From: Spirulinaceae cyanobacterium SM2_1_0
Lineage (GTDB): Bacteria; Cyanobacteriota; Cyanobacteriia; Cyanobacteriales; Spirulinaceae
Assembly (NCBI GenBank): GCA_012031265.1
Contig: JAAUTY010000009.1
Coordinates: 1 to 64,000, forward strand
Reading direction: 5' to 3'
DNA: 64,000 nucleotides
The notes beneath the pieces were generated by a model. That model made no database searches and was not told the DNA's origin. It saw only the letters and a list, made by a program, of their open reading frames with translations. Shown here one piece after another: positions 5,716 through 22,836 of the stretch (the stretch's first letter is position 1; each line of letters opens with the position of its first letter). Position numbers and translations under genes: made by a program.

Positions 5716-6345
5716 TCACACTCCAACTCCCATCAGGCGCTTGAAAATTTGCAGGACGGGATAGAGGCCGTTGTCACGGTTGCGGATGACGAACTCGTCG
5801 GAGCGGGCATAGTGGGGGACGCCCTCGAGGCGAGCGAGTTTGACGAAGGTGAAGTTGGCGCCGGTAGCGATCAGGCCGTAGGTGGGGGTATCGGGCTGGG
5901 GGTCGGCGAGCATGTAGGTGAGGATCTGCGCCAGAGCTTCGTCGGTGGAAAAAGCGAATTGCTTGGATTCGATGACGGCAACCCAGATGTTGTCGCGCAG
6001 CAACAAAATATCAATCCGCCCTTCGATGGTCTGCCCCTCATCTTCGGCGGCGAGTTCGATCGATTGCTCAGCGCGGATCTGGAAGGGTGCGAGGTAGACA
6101 CCGGCGATGAAAAGTAGCGGACTGACGATCGCCAACTTAACGACGCTCTCAAGTAGGGGCGGATTTTCGATCAGATTAAAGTAACCTTCGCGAATCCGGT
6201 CAAGTTGCTGCTGCTCGCTAGCGGTCAGGAGCGGCAAGTCAGTTTGCCACTCGAAGAAGAAGCGATCATCGCGGCTGCGGACAAGCCCGAAGCGGTCGAT
6301 CAGGTCGCGGAGGTTGATATTGCTGGCGGCGAGGGTGGCGGGCAT
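5716..6345 (-). CDS. HsdR N-terminal-like PD-(D/E)XK nuclease domain protein
   Basis: The protein has 209 residues. The segment GRIDILLLRDNIWVAVIESKQ (about residues 109-129) contains the Asp and Glu-Ser-Lys of a PD-(D/E)XK nuclease, as in the N-terminal domain of type I restriction R subunits (HSDR_N). No helicase domain and no methylase or specificity subunit is nearby. It is therefore one of the stand-alone restriction-endonuclease-like proteins common in cyanobacteria rather than part of a restriction-modification system. The C-terminal part (VIRNRDNGLYPVLQIFKRL) is typical of this stand-alone group. DNA cleavage activity is an inference. Confidence 0.75.
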   Translation of the reverse strand: MPATLAASNINLRDLIDRFGLVRSRDDRFFFEWQTDLPLLTASEQQQLDRIREGYFNLIENPPLLESVVKLAIVSPLLFIAGVYLAPFQIRAEQSIELAAEDEGQTIEGRIDILLLRDNIWVAVIESKQFAFSTDEALAQILTYMLADPQPDTPTYGLIATGANFTFVKLARLEGVPHYARSDEFVIRNRDNGLYPVLQIFKRLMGVGV

Positions 6346-6411
6346 GGTTGGGTTACCTGTTTAACGGGTCGCCTTGACGACCGGGGGTTCAAGCCCCAGG
6401 CCAAGTGCTAA

Positions 6412-6429
6412 AACCCGCTGGAGCGGGTT
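6412..6429. repeat. Short palindrome (REP-like hairpin)
   Basis: AACCCGC-TGGA-GCGGGTT is a perfect 7-bp stem. It lies in the 106-bp gap between two minus-strand genes, next to a second small inverted repeat (GGGG/CCCC at about 6383-6397). On the minus strand the stem is followed by TTAG, so it could act as a weak terminator. The same kind of palindrome is a common intergenic repeat in cyanobacteria. Confidence 0.4.
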
Positions 6430-6451
6430 CGCTGGATGGCTCGCGGCACAG

Positions 6452-7813
6452 TCACTCCGACTGCTGACGTTCGGCAAGCTTCTGTTGCCACTCGCGGTCG
6501 ATCTCGTCCTGCCGCGCGAGATTTTGATCGAGGAGATCCTCGCTGGTGGAATAAGCCAAGTCTTCAGCCGTGATCACCTGGCGGACTTCGAGCTGGCGGG
6601 CGGCGGCGAGTTTGTGCTGGAGCGTCTCGTCCGGTTGCGCGAGGACTTGGGCACGCTCCCGCCGCTGTTGATTGCGAGCGTCAATCTTGGCATTGCGCTG
6701 TTGCAGCCAGAGGTAACGGAGGCCGGGGATGGCGAGGAAGGCGATCGCATAGACCAGCAAAACACCGTAGACCGAGGCGGCAAGGGCGACAACACCGCCC
6801 AGCTCGACCGCGCCCTCAAACCAAAGCAGCCAGCCCAACAACACGGCGAGGGTGATATTGGCAAAACCCAGACCGGTCACCCAGCCGAGTTGGTTGCGGG
6901 AAGCAGCGCTAAACTCCCAGCGGGACTCATGCAAGTAGCCGCCGCTGGGTGGGGCAGCGGTCGGCATTGTCCCCGCCGTCACCTGCAACTCCGGAAAGGC
7001 GTAGATCAACTCGCCCTGCTCCGTCACGTCCGGATAGCCGTTGAAGCGCGCCAGAACCGGAAGCATATAGTCTTCGTCTTCGCGCTCGGCTGCGTCGAGG
7101 TAGGGGGCGATCTGCTCAGCGGTGACCGCGCCGCCGGACTGACGAATCACGGTGGCGATCGCCTGCCAGCGTCGTTGCTCCAGGTCAGCATTCGGGTCGC
7201 CATCCCCGAAGAGGAAGGAGAAGACGGCATCCAAAAAACTCATTTTCGGGCCGCCGGTCGTGGCGCTGGGCTGGGTGCGGAAGGTTTGGGCACGCGGTGT
7301 CTGCAAGCTGGCATATTGTCCGTAGCCGGGTTGCAGCCAGCGATACCAGTTGGGGCCGACCCAGTAGTTGAGATAGATCAGCAGTCGGGCGGTGTTGAAG
7401 CTGCTGCCCGAACGCGATCGCGAGTCCGACTGTCCCTCGCGATTCCCGGCACTCATCGCGGCGATCGCGATCGCCACAATCGCCACGACGATCAACACCA
7501 ACGAGGCAATCAGAATAATCCCAAACGACATCCGAATCAGGGCAAAGAGCACCCGCCAGACCTTCGCCGCCGTTTGTTGCCACTGCAATCGCCGCGACTT
7601 CGCGCGCAGGATGCCGAGAATGTTGCGCGGGAAGCGGTAGACCAGATCGCCGCTCTCCGCCACTTCTAGGTTGCCGCCAACTGCGGCCGCCAGGGCGACC
7701 AGTTCGCGCTGGGCGAGATCGAGGCCGAGACCAGCCCGTGCCGCGATGTCGGCAACCGTGACGCGATCGCCACTTTGCTCAACAGCCTGAATGATGGTGC
7801 GATTAAATTGCAT
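6452..7813 (-). CDS. Conserved cyanobacterial membrane protein with duplicated winged-helix-like domain
   Basis: I start the gene at ATG 7813 (MQFNRTIIQAV), which gives 453 residues. A longer frame to 7927 would overlap the upstream gene. Two similar soluble segments are visible. Residues about 1-70 contain QAVEQSGDRVTVADIAA and end in ESGDLVYRFP. Residues about 240-300 contain TVIRQSGGAVTAEQIAP and end in EQGELIYAFP. Both look like small winged-helix domains. Hydrophobic stretches follow each copy (about 85-120, and two between about 325 and 385). The C-terminus is a charged helix rich in Arg, Gln and Glu. It lies 38 bases after the PLP-lyase gene and is probably co-transcribed with it. The function is unknown. 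Confidence 0.7.
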   Translation of the reverse strand: MQFNRTIIQAVEQSGDRVTVADIAARAGLGLDLAQRELVALAAAVGGNLEVAESGDLVYRFPRNILGILRAKSRRLQWQQTAAKVWRVLFALIRMSFGIILIASLVLIVVAIVAIAIAAMSAGNREGQSDSRSRSGSSFNTARLLIYLNYWVGPNWYRWLQPGYGQYASLQTPRAQTFRTQPSATTGGPKMSFLDAVFSFLFGDGDPNADLEQRRWQAIATVIRQSGGAVTAEQIAPYLDAAEREDEDYMLPVLARFNGYPDVTEQGELIYAFPELQVTAGTMPTAAPPSGGYLHESRWEFSAASRNQLGWVTGLGFANITLAVLLGWLLWFEGAVELGGVVALAASVYGVLLVYAIAFLAIPGLRYLWLQQRNAKIDARNQQRRERAQVLAQPDETLQHKLAAARQLEVRQVITAEDLAYSTSEDLLDQNLARQDEIDREWQQKLAERQQSE

Positions 7814-11867: not shown

Positions 11868-13808
11868 TCAAATGCGGAAGATACCCTCTGGATTGACGGA
11901 GAGGAGCGATCGCCGCTGTAAGCCCTCGCGATGCAGCACCTCATTCGCCGCCAGCAAGCCACTGCTGACCGCCCGCTCCATGAGACCACAGGGGAAGGGC
12001 ATCTTCACCCAATCCCCCGCAAACATGAGATTGGCGATGCTCGTCGCCGTGGTGGGACGCTGCTCGTAGCTATTGGGCGGGAAGCCGGAGAAATTCTTCT
12101 GATTCACCAGCTCGCGGTGCAGGACTGTCGCCCCGACCAAATCGGGCACGATCTCGTACAACTCCTGCTCGAAAGTGGTGAGTAGTGCTTCCTGGGTGGG
12201 AAATTCCTTTTCCTTGTAGCAGTAGGCGTGCAGCTCGACGACGGTGTGGCCGGTGCGGGCGTGCCAGTCGATGAACTGCTGCTGGATGCGGTGGTAGAGC
12301 GTGATGCTGTCGGTGAGCGCGTAGCCTGACAGTGAAGCGAAATTGCTGTGCTCCCAGGGGAAGTCGCGATCAAGCCAGAAGCGCGCTACGGCGAAAGGAT
12401 CGGCCAGCGCCAGTTGCGAAACCTGCTGCTTGAGATTAGGGTCGGCATCGCCCTCGATCAGGTCAAAGAGATGGCGGGTGCCGCCGACATCGGTGGCGAG
12501 GACGTAATAATCGGCTGTAATTGCCACCTCGGCGGCGGGAGCATGGGGCACGACCGCCGCGAGCTGGGCGCGATCGCCCGCCGTCGCCAAGATCGCAAAC
12601 TTCGCCAAGTCTCGCGCTGCCGGCCCGCGCTGCACGCGACCTTCAGCGTCATAGAGTGCGCCATGGCAGGGACAGAGAAATTGCCCGTCCGGCTGGGGTT
12701 GCACCGTGCAGCCTTGATGAGTACAGGTGAGGCAGAGTGCCTCGCGCTCGCTCTGGGCGACATAGACGCGATCGCCCGCGCCATAGTAGCGTTTGCCATT
12801 TTGATTCAGCAATTCGTTGCGTTCAACCCAGAAGGGCACATCGGGTTGGGCATCGCCCTGTTGGTAGGTGAGGCCGGTGATGCGATCGCCCGTGCATTCA
12901 ATCTTGCTCACCGTTGCCTGGGGGACGATCTGCCCGCCATTCGCGGCGATCGCCTGAGCAAGTGGTTGCACTAGGCTCGTCCCCATGTCATCGCAAGTGC
13001 CGTTGAAAGCCAGCCCCTCCGGGTTGCCGAAGAAGTAGAAGTGGAAAAATTGCAGCAACTCGCCCGTGCTCAGCACATCCGGCGCATTCAGGCTCGATTT
13101 GGCAAAGGGCAGAAAGTAAAGATCATAAAGCCCTTGGGGAAAGTCCTGACCCGCCCAATCGGCAACGGCGATGCTGTCGTAGGTTTTGAACGTGCGGGGA
13201 ATCTGGAAGCCCGTGATCGCGCGGAAAACCTGGAGGTGCTTGAGTTTGAGCAAGTTGATCCCCCAACGCAGACGATTGGGCGAGGAGATCGCCAGATCGA
13301 TCACGTTCCAGGGAAAGGAGGAGTGGCTAGGGCGAAAGACCTCTGGCTCATAATCACCAGAGCGAAAGACGAGCGAGTAGGATTCCAACGACTTGAAATT
13401 CTCCTCGATCGCCAGCTCGCTGACGAGGCTTTTGAGGTTGTAGTACTGCGGGAAGAAGCCGTGGAAGCCGTGCTCCATGCGGAATTCTTCATCGCCAACG
13501 TTGATTTTCCAGCTCGCGATCTTGCCGCCGAGGTTGGGCGATTTCTCCAGCAGCGTCACTACGAAACCGCGCTGGCTCAGTTCATAGGCCGCTGCCAGTC
13601 CCGCCAAGCCAGCGCCAATCACGCAGACTTGCTTCGGTTGCTGAAGCTGAACCGGCAGGCTGAGGTTATCCGGCTGATAGATTGTTGGCTGGGGCTTGGC
13701 CAAACGCGAATAGCCGAGGCTAACCCCAACTGCCCCCGCGCCCATCAGCGTGATGGCGGCACGTCGCGAGATCGGGGTCGAAAGCAAGGAAGGAGACTCT
13801 TGACTCAT
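11868..13808 (-). CDS. cruE: CruE-like carotenoid desaturase/methyltransferase: FAD oxidoreductase with Rieske domain
   Basis: The protein has 646 residues. It begins with a twin-arginine-like signal (ISRRAAITLMGAGAVG, about 13-28), followed by an FAD Rossmann motif (VIGAGLAGLAAAYELSQRG, about 63-81) and the LEKSPNLGGK segment of phytoene-desaturase-like enzymes. A Rieske 2Fe-2S motif is embedded in the middle: CTH at 362-364 and CPCH at 379-382. The C-terminus MFAGDW...GLMERAVSSGLLAANEV is the FAD-binding end of carotenoid desaturases. A Rieske insert in a CrtU-type protein of this length matches CruE, which forms the aromatic end groups of synechoxanthin in Synechococcus. The gene symbol rests on domain architecture only. 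No cruH is in the window. It could instead be an uncharacterised paralog. Confidence 0.62.
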   Translation of the reverse strand: MSQESPSLLSTPISRRAAITLMGAGAVGVSLGYSRLAKPQPTIYQPDNLSLPVQLQQPKQVCVIGAGLAGLAAAYELSQRGFVVTLLEKSPNLGGKIASWKINVGDEEFRMEHGFHGFFPQYYNLKSLVSELAIEENFKSLESYSLVFRSGDYEPEVFRPSHSSFPWNVIDLAISSPNRLRWGINLLKLKHLQVFRAITGFQIPRTFKTYDSIAVADWAGQDFPQGLYDLYFLPFAKSSLNAPDVLSTGELLQFFHFYFFGNPEGLAFNGTCDDMGTSLVQPLAQAIAANGGQIVPQATVSKIECTGDRITGLTYQQGDAQPDVPFWVERNELLNQNGKRYYGAGDRVYVAQSEREALCLTCTHQGCTVQPQPDGQFLCPCHGALYDAEGRVQRGPAARDLAKFAILATAGDRAQLAAVVPHAPAAEVAITADYYVLATDVGGTRHLFDLIEGDADPNLKQQVSQLALADPFAVARFWLDRDFPWEHSNFASLSGYALTDSITLYHRIQQQFIDWHARTGHTVVELHAYCYKEKEFPTQEALLTTFEQELYEIVPDLVGATVLHRELVNQKNFSGFPPNSYEQRPTTATSIANLMFAGDWVKMPFPCGLMERAVSSGLLAANEVLHREGLQRRSLLSVNPEGIFRI

Positions 13809-15152: not shown

Positions 15153-16628
15153 ATGCCGCGCCAACCCACCCTTAGCTTCCACCGAGGCACGCTGCTGCTG
15201 CATCCGCCGCCGCGTGGCAAGGCTTGGGTTGACTACGCCACCTGGGATGATCGCGTCGAAAAATTCCGCATCCCGGCCCACCAGTATCGACCGCTCGTCG
15301 AAACCCTGCGCGCTGAAGGCATCCACTTCACCGACGCAGCGCGCGCCTTTGAGCCGCTGGAGCTGCAAGCCAGCCTCCGCCTCGAACCCTATCCCCACCA
15401 GCGCGAAGCCCTGTATGCCTGGAAACTGGCTGACCGGCAGGGGGTCATCGTTTTACCCACAGCGGCGGGAAAAACATATTTGGCGCAATTGGCGATGCAG
15501 GCGACACCGCGCAGTACCCTGATCCTGGTGCCGACGCTGGACTTGTTGCACCAATGGTTTGCCCAGCTTGAAGCTGCCTTTCCTGGTGTCGAGGTCGGTG
15601 TGCTCGGCGGCGGCTCCCAAGACCGGACGCCCATCCTCGTTGCCACTTACAACAGTGCTGCTATCCATGCCGAGACCTTGGGCAATCGCTACGGACTGCT
15701 GGTGTTTGATGAGTGCCATCATTTGCCGACTGAGTTTTTTCGGGTGATTGCCGAGTTTGCGATCGCCCCCTATCGCTTGGGCCTGACCGCTACCCCGGAA
15801 CGCACCGACGGCAGCCATGCTGACCTGGAAACCCTAATCGGTCCTGTTGTCTACCGCAAGTCGCCGCAAGACCTATCTGGACAGGCTCTTGCCGAGCATC
15901 AAGTTGTGCAAATCAAGGTGCAACTCTCGGAACTCGAGCGCCAGCGCTACGACCGCGCGCTGCAAACCCGCAATGACTTTCTGCAACAGGCGAAGATTTC
16001 GCTCGGTTCCCTACAAGGCTGGCAGCACTTTGTGCAGGCTTCGGCGCGATCGCCCGCCGGTCGTCGTGCCATGCTCGCTCATCGTGAGGCGAAGGCGATC
16101 GCCCTCGGCACCGACGGCAAGCTGCGTCTGTTGGCCGAATTAGTGGCTAAGCACTACCCGGAGCGCCTGCTGATCTTCACCAACGACAACGCCACGGTCT
16201 ACCGTATCTCACAGGACTTTCTGCTCCCAGCCATTACCCACCAGACCCCGGTGAAGGAGCGCCATACGATTCTCGATCGCTTCCGCTCCGGGGAATACCG
16301 CGCTTTGGTCGCCTCCCACGTGCTCAATGAAGGGGTGGACGTTCCCGATGCACGGGTGGCGATCATTCTCTCGGGCACGGGTTCGACACGCGAGTATGTG
16401 CAGCGCCTCGGCCGCGTGCTACGGAAGGGGTCGGGTGCCAATAAGTTGGCGATTCTTTACGAAGTGGTCGCTGAGGATACCACCGAAGAACGCACTTCAG
16501 CGCGGCGGCACGGCAGCACACCGAATCAACTTGAACTGCTGCCACAGTCGCCCCTCTACGGTAAAGGTAGCGGTACACTCCCAAGCGCCGCCGAATCGGC
16601 TAATGCTTGGGATCACGACTCGGAGTAA
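15153..16628 (+). CDS. DEAD/DEAH-box helicase, XPB-like superfamily 2
   Basis: The protein has 491 residues. An N-terminal damage-recognition-like segment (about 1-75) precedes the helicase core. The core has PTAAGKT (Walker A, about 102-108), DECH (about 186-189), GLTATPER, and the C-terminal RecA domain with SHVLNEGVDVPDA and the arginine-finger segment QRLGRVLRKG. The layout is that of archaeal/bacterial XPB helicases (type III restriction helicase superfamily). Many of these pair with a Bax1/DUF790 nuclease, but no such gene follows here. The tail after about residue 455 is low complexity. It is likely a DNA-repair helicase. Confidence 0.85.
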   Translation: MPRQPTLSFHRGTLLLHPPPRGKAWVDYATWDDRVEKFRIPAHQYRPLVETLRAEGIHFTDAARAFEPLELQASLRLEPYPHQREALYAWKLADRQGVIVLPTAAGKTYLAQLAMQATPRSTLILVPTLDLLHQWFAQLEAAFPGVEVGVLGGGSQDRTPILVATYNSAAIHAETLGNRYGLLVFDECHHLPTEFFRVIAEFAIAPYRLGLTATPERTDGSHADLETLIGPVVYRKSPQDLSGQALAEHQVVQIKVQLSELERQRYDRALQTRNDFLQQAKISLGSLQGWQHFVQASARSPAGRRAMLAHREAKAIALGTDGKLRLLAELVAKHYPERLLIFTNDNATVYRISQDFLLPAITHQTPVKERHTILDRFRSGEYRALVASHVLNEGVDVPDARVAIILSGTGSTREYVQRLGRVLRKGSGANKLAILYEVVAEDTTEERTSARRHGSTPNQLELLPQSPLYGKGSGTLPSAAESANAWDHDSE

Positions 16629-16918: not shown

Positions 16919-18367
16919 GTGAGCGCTGATGTGGAGCGAGCAATGGACGCTTTGGACGCCTTCTTCGAGCTGTCGCCGGATTTGCTCTGCGTGCGCGGCG
17001 CGGATGGCTATCTGCAAACCCTGAATGCTGTGTGGATCACGACGTTGGGTTGGAGCGAGTCGGAACTGCGATCGCGCCCTTGGAGCGAATTTGTCCACCC
17101 CAGCGATTTGCCAGCCACCGACGAACTCGAACAGCGCTGCCACCAGACTCGCAGCGGCTATGTCACCTACAAAAATCGCTGGCGTGCCCGCGATGGCAGC
17201 TATCGCTGGTTGCAATGGCGGGTCTCGCCCTATTGCGATGGGTGCAGCTATGGTATCGCCCAAGATGTCACCCAGACGACTTGGCAGGGCAATCGTAATT
17301 ATCTGGCGCAGATCGCGGCGGCGGTCAAACTGCGCGATCGCGCCATCGAAGCCAGCAGCGTCGGTATCGTCATTGCCGATGCGACGCGACCGGATATGCC
17401 CCTGATTTTCGTCAATCCGGCCTTTGAGGCCATCACCGGCTATCCGCCCGCAGAAGTCTTGGGCTACAACTGTCGCTTCTTGCAGGGCAAGCAGACGGAT
17501 CAAGCCGAGCTGGATCGCCTGCGTGCCGCCATCCGCGCCGGCAAGGACTGCACCGTGACGCTGCGCAACTACCGCAAAGACGGCACACTGTTCTGGAACG
17601 AGCTGAGCATTTCACCGATCTACGATGGCGAGCAATTGACGCACTTCGTCGGCGTCCAAGCCGATGTCACGGCGCGCATCCAAGCCGAGAAAGCCGTGCA
17701 ACTGGAAAAAACTCGCGCCGAACGCCTCCTCCGCAACGTCTTGCCGCAGCCGATCATTCAGCAACTGAAGGAGTTTACCGGCTCGCTAGCGCAGCAATTT
17801 GACGCCGCAACAATCCTGTTTGCCGATATTGTTGGCTTCACACCGCTCTCGGCGCAGATGCAGCCGCTGGAGCTGATTGAAACGTTGAACCGGGTCTTTT
17901 CCTGCTTCGATCGGCTGGCGGAGCAGTACGGGGTTGAAAAAATCAAGACGATTGGCGATGCTTACATGGCGGCGGGGGGAATTCCGTTGGTGCAGGCGAA
18001 CCATGTTGAAGCGGTGGCGGATTTGGCGATCGCCATGCAAGCGGCGAGTCAGCAATTCAAAACTAGCCGCGGTCAACCGATCCAACTCCGCATCGGCCTC
18101 CATACCGGCCCAGTTGTCGCGGGCGTCATCGGCATTAAGAAATTCATCTACGACCTCTGGGGTGATACGGTCAATGTCGCCGCTCGTCTGGAATCCCTGA
18201 GTGAACCCGGCCGTATCCAGATCAGTGCGGCTGTCTATGAGCAACTGGGCGATCGCTACGACTGCGAGCCACGCGGTTTGATCCCGGTGAAGGGCAAAGG
18301 GGAACTCTTCACCTACTGGCTCCTAGTACAAGGCGGCGGCAATGAGATCCCCATTCAGGAGCTGTAG
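16919..18367 (+). CDS. PAS-LOV-adenylate cyclase (predicted blue-light-activated class III cyclase)
   Basis: The protein has 482 residues. PAS1 is at about 10-120. The second PAS (about 140-252) is a LOV domain with GYNCRFLQG at 182-190, so Cys185 is the expected flavin-adduct cysteine. The class III cyclase domain (about 292-470) has metal-binding Asp303 (LFADIVGFT) and Asp347 (GDAYMA), adenine-selecting Lys343 and Asp412 (IYDLWGDTVN), and transition-state residues Asn419 and Arg423. All active-site residues are present, and Lys/Asp predict ATP rather than GTP. The same order occurs in the cyanobacterial LOV cyclase mPAC of Microcoleus. The start is GTG 16919, with ATG 16943 as an alternative. 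Residues from 469 to the stop are encoded by repeat R2. It is convergent with the receiver-GGDEF gene. Confidence 0.9.
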   Translation: MSADVERAMDALDAFFELSPDLLCVRGADGYLQTLNAVWITTLGWSESELRSRPWSEFVHPSDLPATDELEQRCHQTRSGYVTYKNRWRARDGSYRWLQWRVSPYCDGCSYGIAQDVTQTTWQGNRNYLAQIAAAVKLRDRAIEASSVGIVIADATRPDMPLIFVNPAFEAITGYPPAEVLGYNCRFLQGKQTDQAELDRLRAAIRAGKDCTVTLRNYRKDGTLFWNELSISPIYDGEQLTHFVGVQADVTARIQAEKAVQLEKTRAERLLRNVLPQPIIQQLKEFTGSLAQQFDAATILFADIVGFTPLSAQMQPLELIETLNRVFSCFDRLAEQYGVEKIKTIGDAYMAAGGIPLVQANHVEAVADLAIAMQAASQQFKTSRGQPIQLRIGLHTGPVVAGVIGIKKFIYDLWGDTVNVAARLESLSEPGRIQISAAVYEQLGDRYDCEPRGLIPVKGKGELFTYWLLVQGGGNEIPIQEL

Positions 18368-18464: not shown

Positions 18465-20429
18465 CTAAACAACCGCTTGTAAGACAAAGCGATTGCGCCC
18501 CTGCTGCTTCGCTTGATAAAGTGCCCGATCGGCTTCGGCAATCAACAGCTCGGGGGGCTGATCGACCAGCGGGACGAGAGCAGCCACACCGGCACTGATC
18601 GTCACCCAGCCGCTCGGCGCGGTTTGGTGCGGTAGTTCCAGAGCGGCGATCGCCTGCGTCAGCCTACCCGCCACATGAGCGGCACCGGTCAGGGTCGTAT
18701 TGGGCAGCAGGATGGCAAACTCCTCACCACCATAGCGAGCCACCAAGTCGGCTGGTCGCTGGATGAGACGTTCGAGCGCCCGCGCGATCTGGCGCAGGCT
18801 ATCATCCCCGGCGAGGTGACCGTAAGTGTCGTTGTATTGCTTGAAATAGTCCACATCGCAGAGGACTAACGCCAGGAATTTTTGTTCACGGCGCAGACGC
18901 TGCCATTCGTCGCGCAAGCGCTGATTGAACTGGCGGCGATTGGCCACGCCGGTTAGGCCGTCAAGTGTTGCTAGACGGTGCAGATTCTGATTAGCCCGCA
19001 CCAGCGCCGCTTCAGTTTCTTGCAAAGCAATATTCTGCGCACTCAGTTCTGCGCGTTGGCGTTGGGCTTGTTCAAAGTAATGGGCCTGGGCGATCGCGAT
19101 CCCCATTTGAGCCGCAACTGCCTCAAGCAGCTCGATTTCCGCCGCTTGCCATTGCCGGGGGCGATCATATTGCTCGAGACAGATCGCCCCATTCGGTTGC
19201 TCTTGATACGAGGTGCGGATGAACAGCAGCGACTGCAAACTGTCGGGCACCGCAACCGTCGCAAAGCGGGGATCACCGGGGACAGTATGAATCGCCACGG
19301 CGCGATCGCTCGCTAGCGCTGCCGCCACCACAGGTTGCTCAACGGCCCAGGCGACTTCGGGCAGGGTGTGTTGAATGTCAGCATAATACTCGGCGACCCG
19401 GGGAATGCGAGGCTGCGGTAATGTGTCGTAGGTATGCAGTGTGCAGCGATTCACCTGCAACGCCTGACCGAGCGCCGAAGCCGCCGTTTGCAGGATCTGC
19501 TGTGTATCGAGCGAAGAGCGAATATCAGCCGTGATCCGCTTAAGCAGCAGAGCACGCTCCAACTCACGCTGGCGGGCGATCTCCGCTTGCTTCTGAGCCG
19601 TGATGTCGGCAATAAACCCTTCGATGGCACGCAACCCGCCTGTCGCCGCATCGACAATCCCCTGGCCCTGCTCCCAGACCCATTTCTGGTCACCCTGAGC
19701 CGTGATGATGCGATAGGCCGTCTGAAACCGTGATCGGGCGGCGAGAGCCTGTTGCTTGTAGGCGCGGACAGCAGCACAATCTTCTTCGTGAATGAGTTGC
19801 CAAAAGTGGCGGGAGCCGCCCACTGTAAACGTCTCAGGTGGGTAACCGCTGAGATCCTGACAGCCGATGCTGGCAAATTCCATCGTCCACTCGGTATCGG
19901 GACGACAGCGATAGGCAATGCCTGGTAGGTTACTCAGCAGATTGGTGAGGGTCGCCGAGCTTTCCCAGAGCGCTTCTTCGATCACCGCCCGCACGGTTAC
20001 TTCGCGGCGCAATTGCTCATTCTGAGCTTTGAGTTCGCGGGTCAAGGCGTGCAGCCGCAGGTGGACATTCAGGCGGGCGAGCACCTCTTCACGCTGGAAG
20101 GGGATGGTGATGTAGTCCACAGCACCCAGCGTCAAGCCGCGCACCCGACTTTTCACCTCGTCGAGAGCGGTCATGAAAATGATCGGAATCGATTGGGTCT
20201 CATCATCCGCCTTGAGCTGATAGCAGACCTCGAAGCCGTCCAGCGTCGGCATCATCACGTCCAGCAAGATGAGATCTACCGAACCGGTGCGCGTCATTGT
20301 GATCGCCTGCATCCCATCACGCGCCACTAAGACCTCGAAGTCAGCACGCACCAAAAACTCACGCAGGATGCGGATGTTGACTTCGCTATCATCGACGATC
20401 AGGATGGTCGTGTGCGAAGCAGGCTTCAC
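18465..20429 (-). CDS. Receiver-PAS-GAF-GGDEF diguanylate cyclase
   Basis: The protein has 654 residues. It has an N-terminal receiver (about 8-125) with acidic pair Asp13/14, phospho-acceptor Asp57 (LILLDVMMP) and Thr87. The conserved Lys of the usual KPF motif is Ile109 (VDYITIPF). A PAS domain follows (about 155-280), then a GAF domain (about 295-450), a short coiled coil and a GGDEF domain (about 485-652). GGEEF at 567-571 is an active-site form. RPAD at 558-561 matches the product-inhibition RxxD site. It is predicted to make c-di-GMP in the cytoplasm under control of a partner kinase and a GAF ligand. No histidine kinase is adjacent. Confidence 0.9.
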   Translation of the reverse strand: MKPASHTTILIVDDSEVNIRILREFLVRADFEVLVARDGMQAITMTRTGSVDLILLDVMMPTLDGFEVCYQLKADDETQSIPIIFMTALDEVKSRVRGLTLGAVDYITIPFQREEVLARLNVHLRLHALTRELKAQNEQLRREVTVRAVIEEALWESSATLTNLLSNLPGIAYRCRPDTEWTMEFASIGCQDLSGYPPETFTVGGSRHFWQLIHEEDCAAVRAYKQQALAARSRFQTAYRIITAQGDQKWVWEQGQGIVDAATGGLRAIEGFIADITAQKQAEIARQRELERALLLKRITADIRSSLDTQQILQTAASALGQALQVNRCTLHTYDTLPQPRIPRVAEYYADIQHTLPEVAWAVEQPVVAAALASDRAVAIHTVPGDPRFATVAVPDSLQSLLFIRTSYQEQPNGAICLEQYDRPRQWQAAEIELLEAVAAQMGIAIAQAHYFEQAQRQRAELSAQNIALQETEAALVRANQNLHRLATLDGLTGVANRRQFNQRLRDEWQRLRREQKFLALVLCDVDYFKQYNDTYGHLAGDDSLRQIARALERLIQRPADLVARYGGEEFAILLPNTTLTGAAHVAGRLTQAIAALELPHQTAPSGWVTISAGVAALVPLVDQPPELLIAEADRALYQAKQQGRNRFVLQAVV

Positions 20430-20959: not shown

Positions 20960-22836
20960 TCAGGCAATCTGGAGACGCTGAATTTGCTGCGCCGCGATCG
21001 CATAGATGCCATCAGTACCGGCGAGAAGCGGCGTGGCAGCATTCACAAAGGGTTCCGTCGCCGGGAAGGTCTGGGCGACGACCAGTTGGCGATCGCGCCG
21101 GGCAATGCGAACAATGCCCTCATCGGTGGCGGCGAACAGGTCATTGCCCACCGCACATTTGCCGTGAATCTGGGTCAGCCAAGGAGTCTGCGCCGGGTCG
21201 AAAGTTTGCTGAGCCAAGAGGTCGCCGCGAATCGTAAAAGCCGTGACCTGGCAATGGCGGCCGGTCGGCGTCGCCAGCGTGCAAAACAGCCAACCGCGAT
21301 CGCCCGCCAACACACAAGCCGCCTCCAAGAGCTGACCCCTGCCGAGAGCGAGCGGCAGGCAATCATTGAGACCGGCACGCTGTGGCTCAAAGACGAAGGC
21401 AACGCTAAGGCGACTCGCCCGATAAAAGCCAAAGCCGAACCGGGAACCGAGCCAGATACGGGTTTGGTTGGCGAGCACATCGCCGAGGTATTCCGGGCCG
21501 AGGCGGCCGTCACGGAGCAGTTGACCGTTGTGCAGCCAGACAAGCTGCTCGCCGTTGCTGGCGAGCTGCGCCTGCGACGCGCAAGTATCGACCGCGAGAC
21601 GGCGGGGCGGTTGACCCGGACAGAAGGCGATCGCCTGTCCCTGCTGCGCCACGATCGTCATGTTGCCGTGCAGGATGAATTGTTGTTGTGGGGTGCGATC
21701 GCACTGAAAACGATCGTCCCATCCTCGCGACGAAAATCGCCCTGCTCCCAAGTCAGCCAATGCAGCCCAGCACGAGTCATGGCCGCGGCTACAATCACGC
21801 CCTCAGTGCAGTAAACCAGGGTTGCCGTGACCGGCCCCTGAACCACCTCGGTCTGAATTGTCGGCTGTGCCAGTTTGACCTGAGTCGTCTGACCGCAGGG
21901 GCAAGTGGCGCGAGCATATTCGAGACGACAGCGCGGACAAGTCTGCCAGTGCAGGTCGGTCAGGAGACGGGCGGGGAAGACACCGCGCTGGTCTTGGGTA
22001 AAAACTTGATAGAAATGATGCAGCAGGTCGTCTGATAGAATTTCGTAGGGCAGCGCCGGTTTGGGGTACTTCACATCGGGGCTGAAGACCGTCAGGCGGT
22101 GCAACGGTCGGGCCGCCGTGGACAGTTTTGGTGCCGGTGGGGTGGGCTTGTGGACGCCGCCGTAGGGGCCGACATAGAGCAGGCTTTGCATCAGCAGTAC
22201 CGCAAAAGCATACCAGTCTGAGGTTTCGCGATGGGGCTGGTTGAGGGTGAGCGGCACGGCATAGGGGTCGCAGCACCGGGGATCGACGCAGTGAGCCGTG
22301 AAGGTGCGACAGGGAAAGCGGCCGAACTGGTAAGAGTCCGCATCGATGCAGTAGGCGGCTGTGCCTTGCACGAGGACATTGAGATCGTTGCAGTCGCCGA
22401 TGACGACGCCAGCGGCGTGGAGTTGGCTGATGGTGGCGTGCAGATCCTGGAAAATTTGGACGACGGTGGCTTGGGAGATGCCCGCGCTACGGAACCTGCG
22501 ATCGCTGTAACGCCAAAGCACCTCAGCGGGTTCAATCAACGGCATGGTGTAGCCAAGGATCGTTTGCCCGCTGCGATCGGTCACGAGTTCGAGCGGTGAC
22601 ACGACGCGGGCGGGTAAACCCGTGGGAAATTGGCGCAGTTTTTGCTGGTGTTCGGCGAGGCGTTGGGCGGCGGCTTGTTGCGCTTGGGGCTGGTTTTGGT
22701 AGTCGGGATGGTCGGGGGGCTTGAAGAGTTTCAGGGCGCGATCGCCATCGAGCCGAAAAATATCCGCCTCCCCGCCTTTGCCAATCGCTTGCTGAGGCTG
22801 GAGTTGCAGGCGGCGACCATGCAGGTAGACGGACAT
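20960..22836 (-). CDS. Protein-kinase-like protein with zinc ribbon and C-terminal beta domain; apparent frameshift
   Basis: Two overlapping frames look like one gene. The N-terminal part (21658-22836) is a divergent protein kinase: GKGGEADIF with Lys36, IGDCNDLN in place of HRD..N (Asp148, Asn153) and DAD at 165-167 in place of DFG. It is followed by a zinc ribbon (Cys300, 303, 312, 314). The C-terminal part (20960 to about 21760) reads in another phase. It continues naturally from the SAIAP segment into QQQFILHGNMTIV and looks like a beta-propeller-like or WD-type sensor of about 230 residues. The phase change falls in the TGTTGTTGTGGGG run at about 21681-21694. A sequencing error or a real mutation would look the same. 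The start at 22836 (MSVYLHGRRLQLQP) is well defined. Function unknown. Confidence 0.72.

Follow-up and report, generated by a model that had tools for sequence, protein, structure and literature searches.

A predicted blue-light-regulated adenylyl cyclase with PAS and LOV domains from a Spirulinaceae cyanobacterium

The window, by which we mean the whole 64,000-nucleotide stretch of DNA that was analysed, contains a gene that raises the question of whether its product couples the sensing of blue light to the synthesis of cAMP. We consider the product likely, with a probability of about 0.82, to be an adenylyl cyclase of the mPAC kind that is soluble, forms homodimers, and is regulated by blue light. 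mPAC is the LOV adenylyl cyclase that Raffelberg et al. reportedly described in 2013 from Microcoleus (Coleofasciculus) chthonoplastes PCC 7420. Both proteins are cyanobacterial, and both join a LOV domain to an adenylyl cyclase domain. The kind is already known, and the protein from the window is a useful but ordinary new addition to it. The direct observations are the domains and residues of the protein, their conservation, the predicted fold, and the fixed length of the linker.

The frame at positions 16919-18364 of the forward strand is uninterrupted and codes for a protein in which a PAS domain is followed by a canonical LOV domain and then by a class III cyclase (Table 1). Translation may start at the GTG at 16919, giving 482 residues, or at the ATG at 16943, which is preceded by GGAG six bases upstream and would give 474 residues. 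The Pfam matches are PAS_3/PAS_4 at approximately residues 16-120, PAS_9 at 148-252 (E 2.5e-25), and Guanylate_cyc PF00211 at 291-468 (E 2e-61, 207 bits), and the domain and residue matches are far above the level of chance. According to Pfam and the AlphaFold2 model, the cyclase immediately follows the LOV domain and is joined to it by a helix. The model, calculated from 24 sequences, has a mean pLDDT of 82.9 and a pTM of 0.46; therefore, the single domains can be trusted, whereas their mutual arrangement is not predicted. The pLDDT drops below 50 at residues 121-126, where the helix joining PAS to LOV starts.

Table 1. Positions of the cyclase gene and its parts in the window, and of related genes with a receiver domain at other loci.
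Feature	Position	Strand	Basis or remark
PAS-LOV-adenylyl cyclase gene	16919..18367, including stop	+	ORF translation, Pfam, orthologs
N-terminal PAS, PAS_3/PAS_4 type (residues 16-120)	16964..17278	+	Pfam, PDB sequence comparison; LOV cysteine motif absent
Predicted helix joining PAS to LOV (residues 126-145)	17294..17353	+	AlphaFold2 model
LOV domain (residues 148-252)	17360..17674	+	Pfam PAS_9, NCBIfam, PDB sequence match, sensor tree
Codon TGT of Cys185, predicted to form the adduct, in GYNCRFLQG	17471..17473	+	Motif; invariant in 24 sequences
LOV-to-cyclase helix, putative signalling linker of fixed length (residues 251-274)	17669..17740	+	Model; constant spacer lengths
Class III cyclase homology domain (residues 291-468)	17789..18322	+	Pfam, structure matches
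Stretch with catalytic residues (Asp303, Asp347, Lys343, Asp412, Asn419, Arg423)	17825..18187	+	Residue check, alignment, base-selection rule
REC-LOV-AC	L140 1465-2967; L142 1486-2967; L143 1480-2967	-	Receiver in front of LOV cyclase

The PAS-LOV-cyclase layout (PAS-LOV-AC) is present in at least 22 cyanobacterial species besides that of the window, with proteins that are mostly 59-66% identical to the one studied here. A search of contigs turned up close relatives, 52-65% identical, at eight loci from Symploca, Spirulina, Zarconia, Prochloron, and another cyanobacterium. Whole-genome searches, in which matches were counted at E below 1e-115, gave matches in 22 of the 391 species of the order and, within the window's own family, in 11 of 13 species; both counts include the species of the window. 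The layout was recovered in ten of the twelve other species examined in that family. In the family containing Coleofasciculus, eight of 22 species were matched, seven with PAS-LOV-AC and one only with a variant carrying a receiver domain (REC-LOV-AC). Two species from other orders were also matched, with alignments that cover the window protein from its residue 11 or 12 onwards. The N-terminal PAS domain is kept in every aligned ortholog with a complete N-terminus. The earlier note on this DNA had read the gene as a PAS-LOV-AC and had called the additional PAS domain rare; its identification of a LOV adenylyl cyclase agrees with the sequence, predicted fold, and conservation, but the rarity of the PAS domain does not hold. 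Across the full length of the protein, close pairs of orthologs have dN/dS values of 0.08 to 0.11, which indicates strong purifying selection. The mean pairwise identity is highest in the LOV domain (76%), followed by the cyclase (69%), the linker (66%), and the N-terminal PAS (58%). Therefore, the gene has been maintained, and its LOV unit most of all. The genome of Prochloron contains a PAS-LOV-LOV-AC (L028, about 5959-7767, forward strand), with tandem LOV domains and the cysteine in both of them.

By analogy with known families of LOV proteins and cyclases, from which FMN binding, the adduct, the dimer, the use of ATP, light activation, and the cellular role are deduced, a mechanism can be proposed. 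FMN would be bound in the LOV pocket, and blue light would cause Cys185 to bond reversibly with the flavin. This change would be relayed through Gln247 and its strand, shifting the helix formed by residues 251-274. Together with the helix of the partner subunit, it may form a coiled coil that repositions the two cyclase domains for the conversion of ATP to cAMP. In the dark, the bond between the flavin and Cys185 would break and activity would drop. The N-terminal PAS domain, joined by another helix, probably tunes dimerisation or dark activity.

The evidence for the relay comes from the linker. The spacer from the D(V/I)(T/S) motif that ends the sensor to the LLxNxLP motif that starts the cyclase is 18 residues long in all 23 LOV cyclases, and the distance from Gln247 to Asp303 is 57 residues in each of the 25 aligned sequences. 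AlphaFold2 models residues 251-274 as a helix, and Fourier analysis of the linker showed no clear heptad periodicity. In engineered fusions of LOV and phytochrome sensors, light control follows the length of the linker in steps of seven, and the change of a single residue can invert it (PMC6798134; PMC5995499). The constant length fits a signal passing through a coiled coil, in which a change of one residue can modify or reverse the response to light, and on these length data a coiled coil would be the best inference for the route from the LOV domain to the cyclase. However, the 18-residue spacer is shared by 62 of 64 other PAS cyclases, which lack a LOV sensor; in the remaining two, the count had been taken from a preceding motif, and their own DIT gives 18 residues. 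The spacer is therefore part of a shared chassis and no specific proof of coupling to light.

The same constancy in PAS cyclases lacking a LOV sensor speaks for an alternative in which the LOV adduct forms, but the cyclase is hardly regulated by light, or is inhibited by it, and the N-terminal PAS or another input exerts the main control. It would also explain the retention of the PAS domain in all orthologs with complete N-termini, and it has precedents in engineered proteins whose LOV output changes sign with the register of the linker (PMC6798134), and in some LOV-GGDEF proteins, which have no light-regulated activity (PMC10396304). We nevertheless regard it as unlikely, since conservation is highest in the LOV domain, which directly precedes the cyclase, and since mPAC, the nearest characterised kind, is activated by light (PMC9614035; PMC4284465). 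The value of +30x (PMC9614035) likewise supports the reading as a blue-light-regulated cyclase.

The middle domain is predicted to be the photosensor. Its motif GYNCRFLQG (residues 182-190), which agrees with NCRF(L/I)Q, contains Cys185, which the earlier note had recognised as the canonical LOV cysteine and which proved invariant in 24 sequences. Putative flavin-contact positions are occupied by Arg186, Gln189, Arg202, Asn217, Asn227, and Gln247, whose roles we take to be those established for the LOV family. Asn184, Cys185, Arg186, Gln189, Arg202, Asn217, and Gln247 are invariant across the 24 aligned family members, and Asn227 is nearly so. The LOV domain was compared with solved structures by sequence, and the best match in the PDB was LOV1 of phototropin (E 8.4e-34), followed by bacterial LOV proteins. 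The best NCBIfam families for this part of the protein are YtvA and LOV histidine kinases, which are known blue-light receptors; the scores lie below the full-length cut-offs, as is to be expected with a different output domain. The N-terminal PAS domain has only distant solved relatives (PAS of a diguanylate cyclase, E 7e-10) and lacks the LOV motif. In the sensor tree, the middle domain groups with LOV domains and not with PAS domains (SH-aLRT 100).

This placement bears on a second alternative, in which the protein is an ordinary PAS-regulated adenylyl cyclase and its LOV-like domain senses flavin redox state or another chemical cue instead of light. Flavin-containing LOV domains can be sensitive to the redox state, and these genomes encode numerous other class III cyclases. 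Such a sensor would not need the photoactive cysteine, which is invariant in every member, and together with the position in the tree this makes the alternative very improbable. The window's genome holds three LOV-like motifs; a LOV-like domain in a long multi-PAS/GAF protein on contig C7 (L164) has NCRIL in place of NCRFL and keeps the cysteine.

The output of the protein is predicted to be cAMP. The earlier note had claimed every catalytic residue of a class III cyclase, and the residue check bears this out: the metal-binding Asp303 and Asp347, the adenine-selecting Lys343 and Asp412, and the transition-state pair Asn419 and Arg423 are in place and invariant among the 24 aligned family members. 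We take their roles to be those established for class III cyclases. In the PDB comparison, the cyclase part matched adenylyl cyclases, and its model superimposed on 5o5k_A with a Z score of 29.7 and an rmsd of 2.7 Å over 215 residues. The accepted rule that a base-selecting pair of Lys and Asp means ATP (PMC5967339) identifies Lys343/Asp412 as the putative pair of an adenylyl cyclase. A guanylyl cyclase, or one of relaxed specificity, is suggested by the many guanylyl cyclases among the structural neighbours of the AlphaFold2 model and is hardly credible given the invariance of this pair in the family.

The comparison with mPAC made in the earlier note is plausible. An ortholog from the Coleofasciculus-containing family (L104), to which the window protein is 63% identical, has 483 residues and 54.2 kDa, which we presume to be also the size of mPAC. 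On the basis of this size, mPAC probably shares the PAS-LOV-cyclase layout. The dark activity of mPAC is approximately 30 times that of bPAC, and LiPAC has no detectable light-regulated activity despite a good-looking arrangement of photosensor and effector (PMC8522238). bPAC and OaPAC resemble the window protein in leading from blue light to cAMP through a flavin sensor placed before a class III cyclase, but their sensor is a BLUF domain, which forms no cysteine adduct, unlike the predicted LOV domain. Pfam detected no BLUF domain (PF04940) in the window protein or in the window's genome. Ordinary cyanobacterial PAS adenylyl cyclases have the same type of cyclase and the same 18-residue DVT-LLxNxLP spacer, whereas the sensor adjoining their cyclase is not a LOV domain.

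REC-LOV-AC proteins from the family containing Coleofasciculus (L140, L142, and L143) share the LOV-linker-cyclase core and spacer with the window protein; they differ in having a receiver instead of the N-terminal PAS and a cyclase domain of another lineage. In the tree of catalytic domains, the LOV cyclases form two groups, one of 20 PAS-LOV-AC (support 99/93) and one of three REC-LOV-AC (100/91). The latter is nested elsewhere with a non-LOV neighbour, and none of the bootstrap trees joined the two groups. In contrast to their cyclases, the LOV domains of both groups adjoin in the sensor tree (SH-aLRT 85), which is based on few columns. Judged by these trees, LOV domains are carried by two separate cyclase lineages, and the simplest reading is that a LOV unit was transferred between cyclases; alternatively, LOV domains were lost in between. 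In REC-LOV-AC, a single cyclase might be under the dual influence of phosphorylation and blue light. We speculate, tentatively, that the window protein integrates two inputs, with the N-terminal PAS sensing a chemical signal and gating the response of the LOV cyclase to light, and that LOV units exchanged between cyclase lineages at the fixed 18-residue register constitute a natural plug-in series for the control of cAMP.

Experimental knowledge of natural LOV adenylyl cyclases comes mainly from mPAC. The at least 22 natural PAS-LOV-AC relatives, together with the REC-LOV-AC and PAS-LOV-LOV-AC variants and the invariant linker, provide a ready set in which to seek LOV cyclases that are less active in the dark, for use in optogenetics, and to test the way in which a class III cyclase is driven by a LOV domain.

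The window (GC content 57.5%) belongs to a genome of 5.03 Mb with 26 PF00211 matches and 11 cNMP-binding proteins. The enzyme is therefore one cyclase of many, and candidate cAMP receptors are present. The search for phosphodiesterases of family PF00233 gave no matches, and none in the controls either. Exposure to blue light increases both cAMP and motility in other cyanobacteria, and a LOV cyclase from Microcoleus produces more cAMP under blue light in vitro (PMC4284465). A promoter scan found one site, the number expected by chance.

No neighbour of the gene in the window is kept as a neighbour of its orthologs. A histidine kinase near the gene at three loci (L025, L157, and L158) was rejected as a conserved neighbour because it is limited to one lineage, and a GGDEF protein near L025 was rejected as evidence of synteny because of weak similarity (34%). 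Within the window, the cyclase gene is convergent with a gene approximately 100 bases away (18465-20429, reverse strand) for a response regulator-PAS-GAF-GGDEF protein, a predicted c-di-GMP synthase; this pairing is not conserved. Upstream lies a gene for an XPB-like helicase with an XPB damage-recognition domain (15153-16628, forward strand). On the reverse strand, a 392-residue kinase-like frame at 21658-22836 has no Pfam match at E 0.001, and the gene at 11868-13808 encodes a flavin amine oxidase with a Rieske [2Fe-2S] domain inserted in the one chain.
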